A stretch of 37,912 nucleotides of DNA from a virus, in IMG/VR virus record IMGVR_UViG_3300043424_000020, positions 1 to 37,912 of that record; one strand, given 5' to 3'. The notes under the pieces were generated by a model. It did no database searches. It was not told where the DNA came from and worked only from the letters and a program-made list of their open reading frames with translations. This document shows positions 13 to 37,870 of the stretch, one piece after another. Position 1 is the first letter of the stretch; each line of letters opens with the position of its first letter. Position numbers and translations under genes: made by a program.

Positions 13-36
13 TCACGAACCCCGTGAAATTTTTTT
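13..36 (+). terminator. Weak candidate terminator at left end
   Basis: A short perfect stem (TCACG at 13-17 and CGTGA at 23-27, five-base loop) is followed by a run of seven T (30-36). It would stop plus-strand transcripts entering from the left, which makes sense only if the map is circular. The stem is short, so the call is weak. The neighbouring A/T run also stands out in a GC-rich genome. Confidence 0.3.
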
Positions 37-48
37 CAAAAAGTAAAA

Positions 49-72: not shown

Positions 73-102
73 TTGCACAATTTCCTTAAGTTCCGGTACA
101 CT
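73..102 (+). promoter_or_regulatory. Candidate late promoter before terS
   Basis: TTGCAC (73-78) and TACACT (97-102) are separated by 18 bases, a loose sigma70-like pair. TACACT also occurs as the proposed -10 at 31236-31241 on the minus strand. A start near 109 would leave almost no leader before the terS ATG at 113, and no Shine-Dalgarno site is seen there. The promoter or the terS start may therefore be wrong. Confidence 0.3.
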
Positions 103-112
103 GTGGCCCACT

Positions 113-676
113 ATGGAACAAGCATTCGCTCCATCCGTAGGCACGGTTGTCACCGGTGAAAGTGCACTCCCAAACTGGCTGTCGTGCCCGGACCCGCCAA
201 CACCTCGCCCCACGAAGGCTGCGAGAGAGTTGCTGCACATCGAATACGAGCAGATATTCGAGCGGGTGATCGAGGACATCTATCGGGGTCGATCCCTGCA
301 GTCGCTCATCGAAGGTGATCCAAGGGTCATCTCGTATGAGGACTTCCTGCGCTGGGTCAAGCGTGACCCGCAGCGCCATGAGCGGTTCAAGGAAGCGCAG
401 GAGATGCGCACGGAGTTCTTGGCCGGGGAGATCCTTGAGATTGCCGATGGTGTTGAGTCGGTTGACCCCACCTCGAACGACACGGTAAACCGGGACAAGT
501 TGCGCATCGACACGCGCAAGTGGCTCATGGGAGCGCACAACAAGAAGCGTTACGGTGAGACCAAGCAGATTGAACTCGGGGGCACGATCTCGATCACTGA
601 AGCGCTGGCGCAGGCCCAGGCCCGGGTGATCGAGGGTGAGGTCATCGACGTAACCCCTCGACTGGAGAACGACTGA
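113..676 (+). CDS. Terminase small subunit (Sf6/P22-type)
   Basis: This 187-residue protein is predicted to recognise the packaging site and load the motor. The central part (about residues 35-150) looks like Sf6-type small terminases: a helical N-terminal DNA-binding region, then RHERFKEAQEMRTEFLAGEI and an RKWLMGAHNKKRYGE segment typical of the family. The C-terminus is acidic and helical. The stop overlaps the large-subunit start by one base (TGATG at 674-678), which supports coupled translation. No good Shine-Dalgarno site precedes the ATG, and the first 30 or so residues look unconserved, so the exact start is uncertain. Confidence 0.82.
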   Translation: MEQAFAPSVGTVVTGESALPNWLSCPDPPTPRPTKAARELLHIEYEQIFERVIEDIYRGRSLQSLIEGDPRVISYEDFLRWVKRDPQRHERFKEAQEMRTEFLAGEILEIADGVESVDPTSNDTVNRDKLRIDTRKWLMGAHNKKRYGETKQIELGGTISITEALAQAQARVIEGEVIDVTPRLEND

Positions 677-30613: not shown

Positions 30614-31018
30614 TCAGGCTCCCTTCAGTGTTTCAACGCCTTGGAACAGCGCACCGTAGTGCTCGGGCTTGACGTCGTTGATGTTCGCGTAGCCCAGGCC
30701 GGTCAGCACGTTCTGGATCTGGGCACCCTTCTGCGGACCCATCGCCTTGTAGGCACCCATGACGTAATCGATCAGACCCTTACCGTCAGAAAACGGTGCG
30801 CCGCTGGGCACAGGCGCTGCCACGGGCGCAGGAGCCACGAACGCCGGGGGTGCGGGCATCGTGGGCGTCACGGTGACCGGGGCGGGGACCGGAGGAACGG
30901 AGCCACCGGTGCTGACGATTGGTGGAGCCACCGGTGCGGCTACAGTTGACGATTCCAGCTTCGCAGTCAGCGCCAATACAGCCTGGGTCAGCGCGTCAAT
31001 CTTGGCTTCGAGGGACAT
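30614..31018 (-). CDS. Phage early protein with Pro/Ala linker, unknown
   Basis: The 134-residue product has an N-terminal helix (SLEAKIDALTQAVLALTAKL), a Pro/Ala/Val-rich linker (residues about 25-75) and a compact C-terminal domain (GKGLIDYVMGAYKAMGPQKG, then IQNVLTGLGYANINDVKPEH). This layout is a recurrent unnamed phage family located beside recombination genes. A recombination or SSB-partner role is only a guess. The ATG is supported by AAGGAG seven bases upstream, within the overlapping end of the regulator gene. Confidence 0.7.
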   Translation of the reverse strand: MSLEAKIDALTQAVLALTAKLESSTVAAPVAPPIVSTGGSVPPVPAPVTVTPTMPAPPAFVAPAPVAAPVPSGAPFSDGKGLIDYVMGAYKAMGPQKGAQIQNVLTGLGYANINDVKPEHYGALFQGVETLKGA

Positions 31019-31205
31019 AAAGTTTCTCCTTGGGATTACCGGTTACAGGGGGGTTGATGGTGACGCGATCTTCGACGAACGCATCGATGAGTTCACGCAA
31101 GACCTCGCTCGGTGTCCCGAACTTTCTGGCCTTGACGTGAAACCTTGTGCGCGTCTTGTCTGACACTCGGACAGTCAAGTACGCTGATTTGTTGATGGCG
31201 GGCAT
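30996..31205 (-). CDS. Ribbon-helix-helix regulator
   Basis: This 69-residue Arc/MetJ-type DNA-binding protein has a beta strand AYLTVRVSD (residues 8-16), helix RTRFHVKARKFG, the turn at G30-T31 and helix PSEVLRELIDAFVED. The first gene of the replication operon, it lies beside the divergent promoter region and so is well placed to autoregulate and to control the primase. The short leader has no strong Shine-Dalgarno. The 3' end overlaps the next gene by 23 bases. Confidence 0.75.
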   Translation of the reverse strand: MPAINKSAYLTVRVSDKTRTRFHVKARKFGTPSEVLRELIDAFVEDRVTINPPVTGNPKEKLYVPRSQD

Positions 31206-31375: not shown

Positions 31376-33873
31376 CGGCACCACAGACCGTGCAACCACA
31401 TCCCGCGTCCATTGACGCATACATCCGACACGGCTGGAGCCTTGTGCCCATCCCAGCGGGCACCAAGGGGCCGCGTACCCCGGGCTGGAACCTCAGAGAG
31501 AACGCTCTCAAGAGTCAGGCCGATCTGCCGCAGGGCTACGGTATCGGGCTGGCCCATGCGTATAGCGGCACGATGGCGCTGGACATCGACAACTGGACCA
31601 TCACCACGAGTCTGCTGGCCGAGCAGAGCGTGGATCTGCAGGCGCTGTACGACGCACCCGATGCGGTGGTGATCAACTCGGGCAAGCCTGGGCGGGGCAA
31701 GCTGCTGTACGCGATGCCCTTCGGCGCTGCGCTGCCCTCGAAGAAGATTCTGCACAACGGAATCACCGCCTACGAACTGCGCTGCGCCACCGCATCTGGC
31801 CTGACTGTGCAGGACGTGCTGCCCCCGTCGATCCACCCTGAGACACGGCAGCCCTACCACTGGGCAGGCCACGGCCACTGGACGCGGCTGCCGGTGATCC
31901 CCCAGGCGCTGCTCGATGTGTGGCAGAAGTTATTGGATTTCGATAAGGTCCGTAATCTCCACATAGACGGCACGATTGACGCCTCATGGGAAGAGATCCG
32001 GCAGGCGCTGGACTGCGTGCCTGCTGACTGTGGTCGTGACGATTGGGTGTCCATCGGCATGGCGCTGCACTGGGCCGGCACCCAGACCAACCAGCTTGAA
32101 CAGGGTCTGCAACTGTGGAACGAGTGGAGCGCCACGGCGCAGGTCAAGTACCCCGGTGAGCGGGAGATCCTGACCCAGTGGATGTCGTTCAAGCCGGACA
32201 AGGCCACCTCGGTCAAGCTGGGCACCTTGTTCCACATCGCCAAGCAGCACGGGTGGCAGCGACCGTTGCCCGATGCGTCCGAGTTGTTCAGCAAGATCGA
32301 GATCCCGGTCATGGAGCCGTTGGACGTGCTCGATGGGCTGCGCCCGAAGCCGCCCGACATGGACATGAGTCTGTGGCCCGCCATCCTGCGCCAGCGGTCG
32401 CAGGAGATCTCAGAAAGCGTGGGCTGTGACCCTTTGGTCCCTTTGTTCGCTGGGTTGGCCGCTGTCTGCGGGGTGGTTGACGCCCGCATCCGACTCGAAC
32501 TGATGCCTGGGTTTCGTGTGCCGCCTGTGCTGTGGCTCATGACCCTCGGTGACCCAGCGGACAAGAAGTCACCCGGGTCGCGGCCCATGCTGTCGCCGCT
32601 GAAGAACATCGAGGCCGAGGACCGGCCACGGTACGGCAAGGAACTGCTCGACTGGGAGGGCAAGGAGGCAGCCTACGCCAGCGCCAAGAAGGCCTTTCTG
32701 GAGTTCAGCGCCAGCCCCGAGGCCATGCTGGGCGGTGACCAAGCGCCCACGGTGCCCGAGATGCCCCCGCAGCCCGTGCCGCTGAAGATCACGGTCAGCG
32801 ACATCACGAGCCAGAAGCTGGTGCGGCAAGCTGCTGATCGTCCGCGTGGCCTGCTGTGCCACCTCGACGAGATGAACTCGTGGGTGCGCAAGCTGACGGA
32901 CAAGACCAGCGGCGAGGATCGCTCGGCATGGGTTGTCAGCTACGAGTCAGAACACTACGAGATGGACCGGGTGGGCGCTGGCTCGATCTACTGCGAGAAC
33001 CTCGCGGTCTCGATCTACGGAAACATTCAGCCCCAAGTGTTCAGGCAAAACTTGACCTCTCTCGCAGCGGATGGCCTGTTGCAGCGGTTTATACCCGCTG
33101 TGCTGCGCGGGAGCAAGACGAAGCTGGGTCACCCTGTGCCCGAGTACATGACGAGTTCTGGGGCTTGGGAGAACACCCTGCGCCTGACCTACGCGCTGTC
33201 GCCCCAGACCTACCATCTGTCCACCGAGGCGTTTATTGCTTTCCGCGAGTTCCAGGCGTGGTACGAGGAGGCCAAGCAGGACGAGCGGGTGCTGGACAGT
33301 GGCACCGAGTACATGACGGCCTTCGGTAAGCTGGAGGGTCTTGCAGGGCGCTTGATCCTCATGTTCCACATCATCGAGGCACCGTTTGCCCCACAGGTGC
33401 AGGTCGATGTGGTGCACAGGGTTGTGAGCCTGATCAAGGGCTATGTGATCCCGGCGTACCGCTACGCCCTGGGTGAGGTGGGCGGGGCGATCACAAACGA
33501 CTTCGAGCAGTGGGTGATCGACTACATCATCCAGATCAGTGGCGATGTGCAGACCATCGACCTGCGCACCTTGAAGAAGTCAGCACGGCGTCCGTTGGAG
33601 GGCAAGACCGACTGGCAGAAGGATCAGGCGGTGATGGACGCCATGCTGGTGCTGGAGCAGGCCGGGTGGGCGGTGCAGGTGGAGAGTGAACTGCACAAGA
33701 AGCGCGTGACCTGGGCGATCAACCCGTCGCTGCCGGCCATGTTCAAGGCGTACCGCGAGAAGGTGATCAAGGCCAAGCAGCGCCACGCGGACTACATCTA
33801 CCGCCACGCCTACGAGAAGGGCTACGAGCGCAAGCTGGTCAAGGGGTATGACCCCGACACGATGGATGAATGA
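31372..33873 (+). CDS. Primase-helicase (Prim-Pol, PriCT, DUF3987)
   Basis: The 833-residue protein has a Prim-Pol-like N-terminal domain (residues 12-190, with GWSLVPIPAGTKGP, metal ligands in LDIDN at D71 and D73, and IHPETRQPYHW). A PriCT domain follows (about 205-295, CGRDDWVSIGMALHWAG and PGEREILTQWMSF), then a DUF3987 helicase-like region with Walker-A-like GDPADKKSPG (393-402) and Walker-B-like HLDE (497-500). It probably primes and unwinds at the phage fork. It is the only plus-strand gene in the right half and is flanked by its own promoter and terminator. Confidence 0.88.
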   Translation: MTAPQTVQPHPASIDAYIRHGWSLVPIPAGTKGPRTPGWNLRENALKSQADLPQGYGIGLAHAYSGTMALDIDNWTITTSLLAEQSVDLQALYDAPDAVVINSGKPGRGKLLYAMPFGAALPSKKILHNGITAYELRCATASGLTVQDVLPPSIHPETRQPYHWAGHGHWTRLPVIPQALLDVWQKLLDFDKVRNLHIDGTIDASWEEIRQALDCVPADCGRDDWVSIGMALHWAGTQTNQLEQGLQLWNEWSATAQVKYPGEREILTQWMSFKPDKATSVKLGTLFHIAKQHGWQRPLPDASELFSKIEIPVMEPLDVLDGLRPKPPDMDMSLWPAILRQRSQEISESVGCDPLVPLFAGLAAVCGVVDARIRLELMPGFRVPPVLWLMTLGDPADKKSPGSRPMLSPLKNIEAEDRPRYGKELLDWEGKEAAYASAKKAFLEFSASPEAMLGGDQAPTVPEMPPQPVPLKITVSDITSQKLVRQAADRPRGLLCHLDEMNSWVRKLTDKTSGEDRSAWVVSYESEHYEMDRVGAGSIYCENLAVSIYGNIQPQVFRQNLTSLAADGLLQRFIPAVLRGSKTKLGHPVPEYMTSSGAWENTLRLTYALSPQTYHLSTEAFIAFREFQAWYEEAKQDERVLDSGTEYMTAFGKLEGLAGRLILMFHIIEAPFAPQVQVDVVHRVVSLIKGYVIPAYRYALGEVGGAITNDFEQWVIDYIIQISGDVQTIDLRTLKKSARRPLEGKTDWQKDQAVMDAMLVLEQAGWAVQVESELHKKRVTWAINPSLPAMFKAYREKVIKAKQRHADYIYRHAYEKGYERKLVKGYDPDTMDE

Positions 33874-33903: not shown

Positions 33904-34107
33904 TCATGCTGCGCCTTGCAGCGGGACGCGGGAGGGGCAGCGTTCATCGAGTTCCCAGCGCCCGATCCAGACCTGTCGAGATGTGCTCGGGTGCACAGGG
34001 CTAACCTCGATGTTGCGGGTGCAGGTCTTGCACTCATCACGTCCTGAGCCTGCGCACCGGGCGAAGTCAGCCGGGGCGTATTTGTACAGGTTGCTGGCGG
34101 TGATCAT
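33904..34107 (-). CDS. Small cysteine-containing phage protein
   Basis: This 67-residue protein starts at ATG 34107, overlapping the preceding stop (ATGA). It contains KYAPADFARCAGSGRDECKT and CTRNIE, later WIGRWELDERCPSR. Cysteines are spaced C-x8-C-x2-C plus a late C, which could bind zinc, but the pattern is not a family I can name. It is the last gene of the rightmost leftward operon. Confidence 0.55.
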   Translation of the reverse strand: MITASNLYKYAPADFARCAGSGRDECKTCTRNIEVSPVHPSTSRQVWIGRWELDERCPSRVPLQGAA

Positions 34108-34511
34108 GCGTTTCGCTCCTTCAGCGCGGCCTCGATGGCGCGGGCTACAGTGCGGTAGTAGCTTCCAACCGTTTTGCACAGTTCCAGATGTATCGCCTTG
34201 ATCTCCTCCTCGCTCAACGAGCGCCACTCGCGGCGGGGTGGGTGGGTGAAGAGCAAGTGTTCGCCCTCTGGCAGTGAACCAATGCCATCGCACCAGTCCC
34301 AAAGCTCTGCGTGTTGGTCTCCATTCTTCTTGTGCCATGTGCGGATACACGCCACCGGCTCCTGCTCCGGCTGCTCCAGCGCGGCGCGGAGGGCGGCGAT
34401 GGCCTCGTTTATCTTCCCTGATTGCAAGCCACCGTGGTATGTGTGCCAATGGTCTTGCGCGACTCCCAACGCCTCCAGCGCCTGCTTGGCGGCTTCGCGT
34501 AGTGTGGTCAT
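34104..34511 (-). CDS. Conserved phage protein, unknown function
   Basis: This 135-residue protein has an N-terminal helical repeat-like part (LREAAKQALEALGVAQDHWH and INEAIAALRAALEQPEQEPV) and a C-terminal part with GEHLLFTHPPRREWRSLSEE. The ALRAALEQP-to-HPPRREW layout is very common in proteobacterial phages and is always unnamed in my memory. It may have little fixed structure in the middle. Overlaps by four bases at both ends support the frame. Confidence 0.7.
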   Translation of the reverse strand: MTTLREAAKQALEALGVAQDHWHTYHGGLQSGKINEAIAALRAALEQPEQEPVACIRTWHKKNGDQHAELWDWCDGIGSLPEGEHLLFTHPPRREWRSLSEEEIKAIHLELCKTVGSYYRTVARAIEAALKERNA

Positions 34512-34708
34512 TTCCAGTCATCCTTGCTCAGTTGAGCCTTGAGTCGCCTGATCTCGATCTGGAAGGCGTTGGCCTCACAGGATCGTTCGCAGTGTGGCAG
34601 GCCGGTGATGCGGGATTGTGCGATGGCCGTATCGAGGAGTTCACGCAATGCGCGAGATGGTGCAAACCCGTAGGTGTTGCACAGGTTTTGAAACTGTTCG
34701 TTCGTCAT
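34508..34708 (-). CDS. Small helical phage protein, unknown
   Basis: This 66-residue protein, MTNEQFQNLCNTYGFAPSRA followed by LRELLDTAIAQSRITGLPH, ends in a charged helix (FQIEIRRLKAQLSKDDWK). The Shine-Dalgarno AAAGGAC is well placed. The leader contains CTAACCGTTAG (minus strand, 34773-34763), a dyad related to the GTAACCGTAA elements of other leaders. Function unknown. Confidence 0.6.
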   Translation of the reverse strand: MTNEQFQNLCNTYGFAPSRALRELLDTAIAQSRITGLPHCERSCEANAFQIEIRRLKAQLSKDDWK

Positions 34709-34782
34709 GCTTGTCCTTTCTTGTCGGGTTGATGATTGGTTCGATGGCTTAAAACTAGAGGGCTAACGGTTAGTTCGGAGCC

Positions 34783-35082
34783 TTAGTCAGCCTTGGTCTT
34801 CGGTCGCCCCCGGGGCCGCTTAGGGGCAGCCGCCACGGGCTCGGGCGTCAGCGCATCGAGCATAGCGGGCGCCAGTGCCTCCAGCGTGCTCAGGACGTCC
34901 AACAGCCGCACGGCGGCGGCACTGGGTGCCCGGGTGCCCCCGGTCCATTTGCGCAGCGTGAAGACGGGCACCCCCAGCAAGCCGGCGGCGGCGGGTTCAT
35001 CGAGACCCCGGCGGGCAATGAACCCTGCGAGGGTTGCAGAAAAGCCCCCGGCGGGGGCACTGGGTGAGGGTTCAGGGTTCAT
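34783..35082 (-). CDS. HTH DNA-binding protein with AT-hook tail
   Basis: This 99-residue protein has an XRE-like helix-turn-helix (residues about 17-62: LAGFIARRGLDEPAAAGLLG, then VPVFTLRKWTGGTRAPS). A separate AT-hook-type tail, PKRPRGRPK (residues 87-95), could bind the minor groove of A/T runs. This suggests a small transcription regulator, perhaps of the early promoters or of the A/T-containing end region. It lies behind an intrinsic terminator (35106-35133), so its mRNA depends on read-through. Confidence 0.65.
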   Translation of the reverse strand: MNPEPSPSAPAGGFSATLAGFIARRGLDEPAAAGLLGVPVFTLRKWTGGTRAPSAAAVRLLDVLSTLEALAPAMLDALTPEPVAAAPKRPRGRPKTKAD

Positions 35083-35435: not shown

Positions 35436-36113
35436 TCATCCTTTCACAATGGGGATGATGCGACGTGCCTTCGCATCCGTTACCCGTGCCCGGGTGCCGT
35501 GCGCACGGAATCCAACGATGATGCTGCGATCAGCACGAGCGCAGAGCCCGCACGTTTCACACGTCACTTCATCGCGGGTTTGAGCCGGGCATACGATGAT
35601 GGTCCGCCCGCCCGGAGTGTAGGTTTTCTCGGGCGTGTCCATCGGCACGATTGCGCACACGGGCAACCCGGTTTCAGCCAGTGCGTCAGCTTCCCCCGCA
35701 TCGTCAGCGGATAGGTTAACGGTGAAGCCCCATCGGGTTGCGTGCTGCGCCCATTCGATGGCCTCAGCGCTTTTCTTGTGGGTGTAGGTGAAGCCCCGGC
35801 GCCCCCGGTTAGCCCATACGATGGCACCCAGTGCAACGGGGTCGACGGACTCACCCTCACCCGGCAGATCCCCCGCCACGTTCATGCGCCATAACTGACC
35901 CTCAGGCAGTGCGGCAATCGAACGGGTGAGATCCTCAAGGGTGCCCCCGCGTGCGGATACCTTGTCCCATGTCATGCGGGTGTAGTAATCCTCAGCGTAG
36001 CAGTCCGCCCGATAGTGTGCGCACGATGGCGGGCACGTCTCACGCTGAGAATAGGTTACGGGGATAGGTCCGGTTTTGCGATTCGATGATTCGAAGATGA
36101 AGTGATAACGCAT
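35436..36113 (-). CDS. Cysteine-rich radical-SAM-like phage protein (DUF7227-like)
   Basis: This 225-residue protein has an N-terminal cluster C27-x3-C31-x6-C38 (TCPPSCAHYRADCYAE) and a C-terminal set C175, C185, C188, C191 (CPAQTR, then CETCGLC). Between them lie beta-strand motifs WRMNVAGDLPGEG, GRRGFTYTHK and GFTVNLSADDAGEADALAET. The family resembles phage Gp37/Gp68-type proteins and is, I believe, called DUF7227 in databases. Two metal or Fe-S sites in a TIM-barrel-like fold are plausible. No reaction is known. The ATG overlaps the preceding TGA (TGATG). Confidence 0.65.
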   Translation of the reverse strand: MRYHFIFESSNRKTGPIPVTYSQRETCPPSCAHYRADCYAEDYYTRMTWDKVSARGGTLEDLTRSIAALPEGQLWRMNVAGDLPGEGESVDPVALGAIVWANRGRRGFTYTHKKSAEAIEWAQHATRWGFTVNLSADDAGEADALAETGLPVCAIVPMDTPEKTYTPGGRTIIVCPAQTRDEVTCETCGLCARADRSIIVGFRAHGTRARVTDAKARRIIPIVKG

Positions 36114-36358
36114 CACTTATCCCCCAGCATGGTCTTAAGTTCTCCCTTGATTCGGCGGGCATCCTCACCCCGCCACGTCCCCGCATTGGCGAGGAAATAT
36201 CGGGCAATCGAACGGGCATCATCGAACCCGTACCGGTCATTCAATCCATCGAGGTTGCGCATGGCATCGATGTAAGGCACGGCGCCAAAATAGGGTTTTT
36301 GCCAGTGGGTGCGAATGTCACGGGCAATCGATGCAAGGGTGCGGGGTGTAGCGTTCAT
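36113..36358 (-). CDS. Conserved small phage protein, unknown
   Basis: This 81-residue protein contains TLASIARDIRTHWQKPYFGA, VPYIDAMRNLDGLNDRYGFD and ARYFLANAGTWRGEDARRIK. The motif set (KPYFGAVPY, YG.D..RSI..YFL.NA..WRG) recurs in phages of diverse proteobacteria and actinobacteria, without known function. ATG 36358 is preferred over 36364 because GGGG of the upstream gene's end is then at normal distance. Confidence 0.7.
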   Translation of the reverse strand: MNATPRTLASIARDIRTHWQKPYFGAVPYIDAMRNLDGLNDRYGFDDARSIARYFLANAGTWRGEDARRIKGELKTMLGDK

Positions 36359-36669: not shown

Positions 36670-36697
36670 GATGTGATCCTTCACGGTTACGGGTTAC
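36667..36697 (-). repeat. 31-base leader repeat, copy 1
   Basis: From the start codon outward (minus strand) the leader contains the ATG, the ribosome site GAAGGATCACATC and two GTAACC-type units. The same 31 bases occur exactly at 36790-36820. Together they carry the same ribosome site and upstream element in front of two different genes. Confidence 0.85.
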
Positions 36698-36792: not shown

Positions 36793-36820
36793 GATGTGAT
36801 CCTTCACGGTTACGGGTTAC
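36790..36820 (-). repeat. 31-base leader repeat, copy 2
   Basis: Exact second copy of 36667-36697, in front of the 30-residue membrane peptide. A third, diverged copy (29 bases) lies at 37326-37354 before the first gene of the operon. Confidence 0.85.
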
Positions 36821-37139: not shown

Positions 37140-37328
37140 TCAGACGATGAAGTCAGGGTGAGACGTCACGCCGAAGATGGGCGCGTATTCGAGGAGTGCA
37201 CTGCGCGACTTGTTCGTGCGGGCGGCACGGATCAGGGCTGACAGTCCACGGGCGATCATGCCCGTGTCCGCACCCAGTGCACGGTACTGCGCCAGCTTGG
37301 TGACTTCGCGGATCTCTGACTTGTTCAT
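37140..37328 (-). CDS. Conserved small helical phage protein
   Basis: The 62-residue protein is the first gene of the rightmost leftward operon. It reads KSEIREVTKLAQYRALGADT, then GMIARGLSALIRAARTNKSR, ending VTSHPDFIV. The family occurs in many phage early regions with no assigned role. Its leader carries three GTAA-type units (37339-37354) and the ribosome site AAGGACCACATC, and a candidate promoter lies at 37382-37412. Confidence 0.65.
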   Translation of the reverse strand: MNKSEIREVTKLAQYRALGADTGMIARGLSALIRAARTNKSRSALLEYAPIFGVTSHPDFIV

Positions 37329-37338
37329 GATGTGGTCC

Positions 37339-37354
37339 TTACGGTTACTGTTAC
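37339..37354 (-). promoter_or_regulatory. Leader element of GTAAC units
   Basis: Minus strand: GTAACAGTAACCGTAA, three hexamer-spaced GTAA units just upstream of the ribosome site. Related elements precede the genes starting at 36792, 36669, 31018, 29057, 28356 and 24251. It could be a DNA operator or an RNA site for a translational regulator. Confidence 0.5.
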
Positions 37355-37381: not shown

Positions 37382-37412
37382 ATCATAACACGATGCGAAC
37401 CCAGTGGGTCAA
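37382..37412 (-). promoter_or_regulatory. Candidate early promoter with dyad-repeat operator
   Basis: On the minus strand TTGACC (37412-37407) and TATGAT (37387-37382), with TG one base upstream of the latter (extended -10), lie 19 bases apart. The spacing is long, but the extended -10 compensates. The -35 lies at the edge of and partly inside a dyad repeat (37399-37409), so a protein binding the repeats should affect this promoter. Confidence 0.6.
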
Positions 37413-37420
37413 GCACTTTT

Positions 37421-37470
37421 CGATGTAAGAATTGCGCTACCAGGGAGCACGGTTCTTACAGCGATGTAAG
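37421..37470. repeat. TGTAAG repeat cluster
   Basis: CGATGTAAG occurs at 37421-37429 and 37462-37470. TGTAAGAA (37424-37431) also pairs with TTCTTACA (37453-37460) as an inverted repeat 21 bases apart. This gives three TGTAAG sites in 50 bases directly upstream of the candidate early promoter. Confidence 0.5.
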
Positions 37471-37531
37471 GTTTCCGGGGGTGTTTTGAAACCCTGACCC
37501 ACTGGGATTACGGGTTTTCACATCATGAAAC

Positions 37532-37669
37532 CAGACGCTGACGATGACAAAAGTGCCTTTTGGTTCTAGGGGTCGGTTTTTGAAAAGCCAGAAAATAAGT
37601 ACCCTTTCGAAAATGCTCTATCTTGGGGGTCGCATGCGCGAAAGGCACACTTGGCATCGTCAGCGTCTG
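37532..37669. repeat. Large inverted repeat with 29-base arms
   Basis: 37532-37560 and 37641-37669 are reverse complements with 26 of 29 matches and no gaps; the outer 15 bases (CAGACGCTGACGATG) and inner 8 bases match perfectly. The 80-base interior is more A/T-rich than the flanks and holds no gene. The whole is embedded among the dyad repeats and could extrude as a cruciform or serve as part of an origin. Confidence 0.85.
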
Positions 37670-37870
37670 ACCCCCGATCCTGACCCACTGGGTGCACGGA
37701 TTCCCTGAAATTCCCCCGGATTCGTCCGGGCACCCTGACCCACTGGGTGCACCCCTCGAACCCCCATGAACCCCTGACCCACTGGGTGCAGTGACCCACT
37801 GGGTGCACGGTTGCGCACCCCTTCCCACTGGGTCAGCATGCCCCCGGGGTGCACCCACTGGGTCAGGGCA

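Follow-up and report, generated by a model that had tools for sequence, protein, structure and literature searches.

The repeats that lie between the early genes and the small terminase gene (terS) of this phage are probably operators for its own 99-aa helix-turn-helix (HTH) regulator, which would use them in the switch from early to late transcription. The DNA analysed here is a stretch of 37,912 nucleotides (IMG/VR record IMGVR_UViG_3300043424_000020, referred to as the window), which by its gene content is a P22-like podovirus of an uncultured lineage. Its genes include those for a P22 portal and coat protein, an Sf6-type small terminase, PrimPol-DUF3987, a SNF2 helicase, an Enc34-type SSB, a DUF2800/RecB-type nuclease and a DNA polymerase. 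In the phage collection, DSL-LC05, for which the family 'Luchaoviridae' has been proposed (PMC10611076), is the sole relative whose DNA matches much of the genome; the searched passages of the DSL-LC05 paper mention neither the repeats nor a repressor.

The two ends of the window belong to a single, uninterrupted intergenic region. The near-identical contig L009, whose terS is 99.5% identical to that of the window, reads across the junction and contains there about 52 extra G-rich bases (GGCGCCGGCGGGTTC...GGGCGTT), and the relative DSL-LC05 is circular. The window is thus nearly, but not fully, closed, the contig being broken at a G-rich run. Since the contig ends form one region, terS (113-676) and the early block that starts at 37328 are divergent neighbours, and the ninth, degenerate repeat copy that the initial annotation had placed at the other end of the DNA is a real copy (49-59) which belongs to the same intergenic region and not to a far end. 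In relatives, the late promoter and the middle sites are separated by a conserved G-run (GGGGAGGGGGTAGGGCC), possibly a G-quadruplex, at about -147 from terS; it is missing from the window because the assembly breaks there. The region had been described as noncoding, and this holds: neither the open reading frame at 37523-37858 nor the hypothetical CDS annotated in DSL-LC05 (33492-33857) is likely to be a gene, as relatives have interruptions in these frames and neither strand is more open than the other. The features of the region and of the genes discussed below are as follows.

24-48, plus strand: conserved A-tract GTGAAATTTTTTTCAAAAAGTAAAA, abutting the late-side operator
49-59, unstranded: predicted operator copy 9, degenerate, ACCCAGCGGGT, late-promoter site
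73-102, plus strand: likely late promoter, weak -35 TTGCAC/TGCACA, -10 TACACT
113-676, plus strand: small terminase subunit (Sf6-type), first late gene (Pfam PF20901, 1.9e-20)
34783-35082, minus strand: HTH regulator (MqsA/HigA/XRE-like, 99 aa) of the early leftward block, predicted to bind the repeats
36678-36690, 36801-36813 and 37336-37348, reverse strand: reiterated early-gene leader
37140-37328, minus strand: first ORF of the leftward early block (from the ORF list and its position relative to the promoter)
37382-37412, minus strand: likely early promoter (from the sequence), TTGACC (37412-37407), extended -10 TGTTATGAT (37390-37382)
37399-37409, unstranded: predicted operator copy 1, inside or overlapping the early promoter
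37497-37507, unstranded: predicted operator copy 2, ACCCACTGGGA, upstream of the early promoter
37544-37562, plus strand: left arm of the inverted pair, RTGACAANNNGCCCTTTYG, ATGACAAAAGTGCCTTTTG
37563-37638, unstranded: AT-rich spacer of the inverted pair, origin unwinding element (candidate)
37639-37657, minus strand: right arm of the inverted pair, ATGCCAAGTGTGCCTTTCG, continuing into conserved GCGCGAAAGG
37683-37693, unstranded: predicted operator copy 3, middle cluster
37738-37748, unstranded: predicted operator copy 4, middle cluster
37777-37787, unstranded: predicted operator copy 5, middle cluster
37794-37804, unstranded: predicted operator copy 6, middle cluster
37823-37833, unstranded: predicted operator copy 7, TCCCACTGGGT
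37853-37863, unstranded: predicted operator copy 8, reverse flank orientation

Allowing at most one mismatch, ACCCA(N)TGGGT occurs nine times in the 696 bp of intergenic DNA and only twice in the other 37.2 kb of the window, at 1069 in terL and at 32173 in the primase gene. Shuffling the region 5,000 times gave a mean of 0.08 copies and a maximum of three, and ACCCANTGGGT is the commonest perfect 5-N-5 palindrome in the genome (six copies, compared to two for the runner-up). The eight cores that start between 37399 and 37853 span 465 bp; those at 37497 and 37823 have a single mismatch, and the GTGCA(C/G) extension is present in five copies, four of them forward and one reverse. Positions and counts of these cores and of the extension in five of them agree with the initial annotation. 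The palindromic unit ACCCACTGGGT is what we propose as the target of the HTH protein.

The relationship between the repeats and the HTH gene was followed in IMG/VR relatives, whose loci were gathered by terS, primase and HTH queries; the loci obtained with the HTH query were selected by HTH presence, while those obtained with the terS and primase queries are independent of it. Among the 92 non-redundant loci holding both the primase and terS with its upstream region, all 88 with an HTH gene have an array upstream of terS with at least three sites, and the four without it have none. Sites are likewise lacking in two HTH-less loci that were added later (L257 and L288, the latter more distant). 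In total, none of the seven HTH-less contigs identified, which represent two lineages and have kept PrimPol and the terminase, carries the array. On the primase tree, gain or loss of the HTH gene and of the sites coincide in both of two independent pairs; with two independent events, co-occurrence alone is statistically weak. In one 35.5-kb contig (L030) sites are present and the HTH gene was not found; as about 2 kb of the full length are lacking in this contig, the gene may be missing from the assembly. Two further comparisons are independent of absences of the HTH gene and the array. Compared with the window, the contigs L088 and L010 encode nearly the same PrimPol (99.4% identical), ribbon-helix-helix protein (RHH; 100%) and TerS (99.5%), but their HTH protein is only 48% identical, and the centres of their sites are mostly A/T instead of C/G. 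In a partial Mantel test with 85 genomes, motif distance was correlated with HTH distance (r=0.29, p=0.001) when PrimPol, TerS and local GC content were controlled. The co-variation between motif and HTH protein is real but modest.

The initial annotation had named three candidate binding proteins. Only for the HTH protein (34783-35082) do presence and divergence follow the motif; the other two are excluded by their distribution. The RHH (30996-31205) is unchanged in L088 despite the altered motif centre and is kept in genomes without sites. DUF7227 (35436-36116), which we took to be the zinc-ribbon protein meant there, is absent from many array-bearing genomes. In the HTH-less lineage of L257 and L147 we observed another repeat family upstream of terS (AAACATC / GATGTTT, e.g. 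AAACATCAAAATTCTGCCGATGTTT); these repeats surround the early promoter and occupy equivalent positions. The same lineage encodes an early protein of about 190 aa that by eye resembles a sliding clamp.

The HTH protein shows a weak profile match to the HTH domain of MqsA (3FMY, E 6e-4), and its AF2 model comprises five helices (pLDDT 87.7). The folds nearest to this model are HigA2 (the closest), MqsA, C proteins, P2 C and Aca10, with structural E-values against the PDB above 0.04; all of these are dimeric HTH DNA-binding proteins. MqsA and Pfam HTH family models did not match the protein of the window, and the homologue in L088 scored below the curated cut-offs (MqsA_antitoxin, 20.2 compared to 30; TIGR03830, 19.8 compared to 61.8), so we consider it MqsA/HigA-like and not a member of these families. 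No toxin family was recognised in the ORFs neighbouring the HTH gene, most of which are unannotated, and phi29 p4 was absent among the profile and fold matches. In the DSL-LC05 record the orthologue is labelled 'repressor protein C'.

An overlap between a site and the top-scoring sigma-70-like promoter of the early side (TTGACA/TAGAAT type) was observed in 75 of the 92 genomes, compared to about 19% expected by chance. In 49 genomes the site fills the spacer beside the -10 element, for example TTGACA-N5-ACCCAGTGGGT-TAGAAT in DSL-LC05, and in 11 genomes it covers the -35 side. The window belongs to the latter group (the site at 37399-37409 overlaps the likely -35 element TTGACC); its near-consensus early promoter is not the top sigma-70 match of the region and has a spacer of 19 between -35 and -10 as well as an extended -10 element. 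Matches to the -35 and -10 hexamers are 5.5 and 4.7 for the early promoter compared to 4.0 and 3.9 for the late promoter, a comparison which is biased towards the early side because the best promoter of each relative was picked among many positions. The conserved overlap strongly implies that the HTH protein represses the early promoter. Several early genes carry a reiterated leader right before their start codons (reverse strand GTAACCCGTAACCGTAAAGG; in contig L007 at 33988-34007, 34155-34174 and 34705-34724), which represents repeated ribosome-binding leaders.

On the late side of relatives, an A-tract (GTGAAAATTTTTTCAAAA) is followed by a single site (mostly ACCCAATGGGT), a weak promoter (-10 TACACT/TAGCAT) and terS. 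The distance from this site to the start of terS is 41-43, 51-54, 61-64, 71 or 81-85 bp and almost never in between (Rayleigh R=0.81 at 10.5 bp for 62 non-redundant spacers; none of 20,000 uniform draws was as high), and the spacing class has changed 26 times on the tree. Steps of one helical turn are expected if the protein, when bound, has to be oriented towards the promoter in one and the same way, either by same-face contact or by looping, and we infer that the HTH protein activates late transcription; the same phasing would also follow from repression of the late promoter from upstream. The predicted late -10 element stops about 10 bases before the ATG of terS in most relatives (97-113 in the window), and the 5' leader of the terS mRNA would therefore be very short or absent.

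A 19-bp sequence is present in two inverted copies in the stretch that separates the left sites from the middle cluster; their spacing is 95 bp start to start in the window and mostly 94-95 bp in relatives. When at least 12 of 16 matches were demanded in both arms (a looser control with 10 of 16 was uninformative, and thresholds were tightened), the arms were convergent in 67 of 112 regions, in the opposite orientation in none and direct in 20. The spacer has a mean AT content of 62% in relatives, compared to 47% for the region, and the pair is also present in HTH-less genomes. The PrimPol of phage NrS-1 has two recognition sequences on opposite strands, which are a proposed origin (PMC7102993). 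As the pair persists together with PrimPol and resembles this arrangement, it is a better candidate for an origin than the palindromes. The GC skew of the window is monotonic and gives no origin signal. The segment 37532-37669 folds strongly as a hairpin in the window (z -4.3, -5.3), but the middle bases of its arms hardly co-vary (arm-to-arm identity at variable positions 0.455, compared to 0.379 for shuffled pairs); since in relatives each arm represents a copy of one and the same element, in inverted orientation and with hardly co-varying middles, we prefer an inverted protein site over a structured RNA. An Rfam match of the hairpin to MIR168 is far below threshold (21.6 compared to 66 bits) and due to chance. 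An outward promoter function of the TTGTCA in the arms was likewise dismissed: the window contains one sigma-70-like match, and in the few relatives inspected by eye no -10 element is present at 17 bp.

Taken together, we infer from co-variation that the array comprises sites of one early protein, on the left, in the middle and on the right, between divergent early and late promoters. The palindrome ACCCR-N-YGGGT is a feature of the DNA itself, and the HTH protein, which would be produced from the leftward early block, is predicted to bind it as a dimer. Accumulating HTH protein would fill the site in the early promoter and thereby turn off this promoter and its own synthesis, as the conserved overlap suggests. 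On the late side it would sit beside the A-tract on a fixed helical face upstream of the weak terS promoter where, judging from the phasing, it most likely helps RNA polymerase to start late transcription, directly or via a loop with the middle sites. The middle cluster might render the switch cooperative and dose-sensitive. The array may be regarded as an exchangeable regulatory layer on an older core, which would consist of the inverted pair (RTGACAA-NNN-GCCCTTTYG), the G-run, the A-tract and the late promoter.

Several other explanations for the repeats are conceivable. The initial annotation had suggested sites of a replication initiator or a repressor, and the regulator half of this proposal gains support from the HTH protein tracking the motif; an initiator role is unsupported because PrimPol persists without the repeats. 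Iterons bound by PrimPol-DUF3987 or another initiator, with the cluster as replication origin, would account for clustered repeats beside AT-rich DNA within the main intergenic region of a phage that encodes a PrimPol-helicase, and for the conserved inverted pair inside the array. Yet genomes with a 72-74% identical PrimPol, with TerS and mostly with RHH have no copy at all, as do the L257 and L288 lineages; the L088 motif has changed next to a 99.4% identical PrimPol; motif variation is unrelated to PrimPol divergence when HTH distance is controlled (r=-0.04, p=0.8); and the repeats are tied to promoters, all of which makes iterons very unlikely. Even more improbable are packaging sites of the pac/cosB type bound by the small terminase. 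The repeats adjoin terS and the terminase is Sf6-type, but the motif has changed in L088 and L010 despite a 99.5% identical TerS, genomes without any copy encode a TerS that is still 72-78% identical, and the partial Mantel test of motif against TerS was not significant (p=0.24).

A lysogeny or immunity repressor with the array as its operators, comparable to P2 C or to the stoperators of mycobacteriophage L5, is suggested by the label of the DSL-LC05 orthologue, by the presence of P2 C among the similar folds and by the predicted operator within the early promoter. We consider this unlikely, if somewhat less so than iterons: the HTH gene lies inside the early block that it would silence and not in a separate maintenance unit, and the sites are limited to one intergenic region and not spread genome-wide like stoperators. 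No integrase was found among 10 near-complete genomes (a control was detected in 14 of 14), which would still be compatible with plasmid-like maintenance, and no relative of the primase was present in 84,980 bacterial and archaeal genomes; both findings are consistent with a lytic life style, without proving it. Closest to our preferred explanation is a protein that only represses, the early promoter by occlusion and the late promoter by looping, and that is removed by another factor for late gene expression. This possibility shares the identification of the operators and differs only at the late-promoter step; helical phasing fits looping as well as activation, and the middle sites are numerous. 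It is nevertheless clearly the less probable of the two, as the late promoter is weak, as expected of an activated promoter, and no anti-repressor was recognised in the early block, few of whose proteins have annotated families. More tentatively still, the HTH protein might control both transcription and replication, its binding shutting off early genes, starting late genes and gating origin firing. The array would then bracket a PrimPol-type origin made up of the RTGACAA-NNN-GCCCTTTYG pair around AT-rich DNA, and the regulator with its array would be exchangeable, since one HTH-less lineage has AAACATC / GATGTTT around the same core.

The proposed early-to-late switch provides a specific and testable account of gene control for a large lineage of uncultivated phages. 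Genome comparison can by itself match a regulator to its operators, here with the help of a near-isogenic natural experiment, and can tell an exchangeable switch layer apart from a core that is conserved and possibly a PrimPol origin. Furthermore, the spacing steps of whole helical turns represent an in vivo constraint that a few insertions would suffice to test.

The known system with the most similar layout is the early/late switch of Bacillus phage phi29 (promoters A2c, A2b and A3), in which inverted repeats between the early and the late promoters likewise provide several sites for one small early protein, p4. The p4 sites overlap -35 elements of early promoters, and p4 has a stabilising effect on RNA polymerase at a late promoter whose -35 element is poor (PMC3100819); overlap with early-promoter elements, a poor late -35 and the involvement of A-tracts recur in the phage described here. 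p4 has four sites of the form 5'-CTTTTT-15 bp-AAAATG and acts together with p6 on a linear protein-primed genome, whereas the protein proposed here is an unrelated XRE-type HTH protein with an 11-bp core in about 3-14 copies in a P22-like podovirus, where regulation is deduced from comparison of genomes. With regard to the inverted pair only, there is a likeness to NrS-1, likewise a PrimPol phage with two copies of a short sequence, one per strand; unlike in NrS-1, recognition of the pair is putative, and the PrimPol of the window has no detectable sequence match in the PDB. Among solved structures, the HTH domain of E. coli MqsA is the nearest in sequence and Vibrio HigA2 the nearest in fold. 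MqsA recognizes AACCT-N3-AGGTT, a palindromic target of similar geometry. In contrast to MqsA and HigA2, the phage protein is devoid of a zinc-binding N-terminal domain, no linked toxin was recognised, and an array in a phage early/late region takes the place of one or two sites. With P2 C, lambda CI and the L5 stoperator system it shares the combination of a phage HTH protein and several predicted operators, one of them in an early promoter; from a single operator region, lambda CI acts as both repressor and activator. It differs from these systems in that no integrase or prophage was seen, in that the sites are found in one intergenic region only, and in that the site at the late promoter shifts by whole helical turns.
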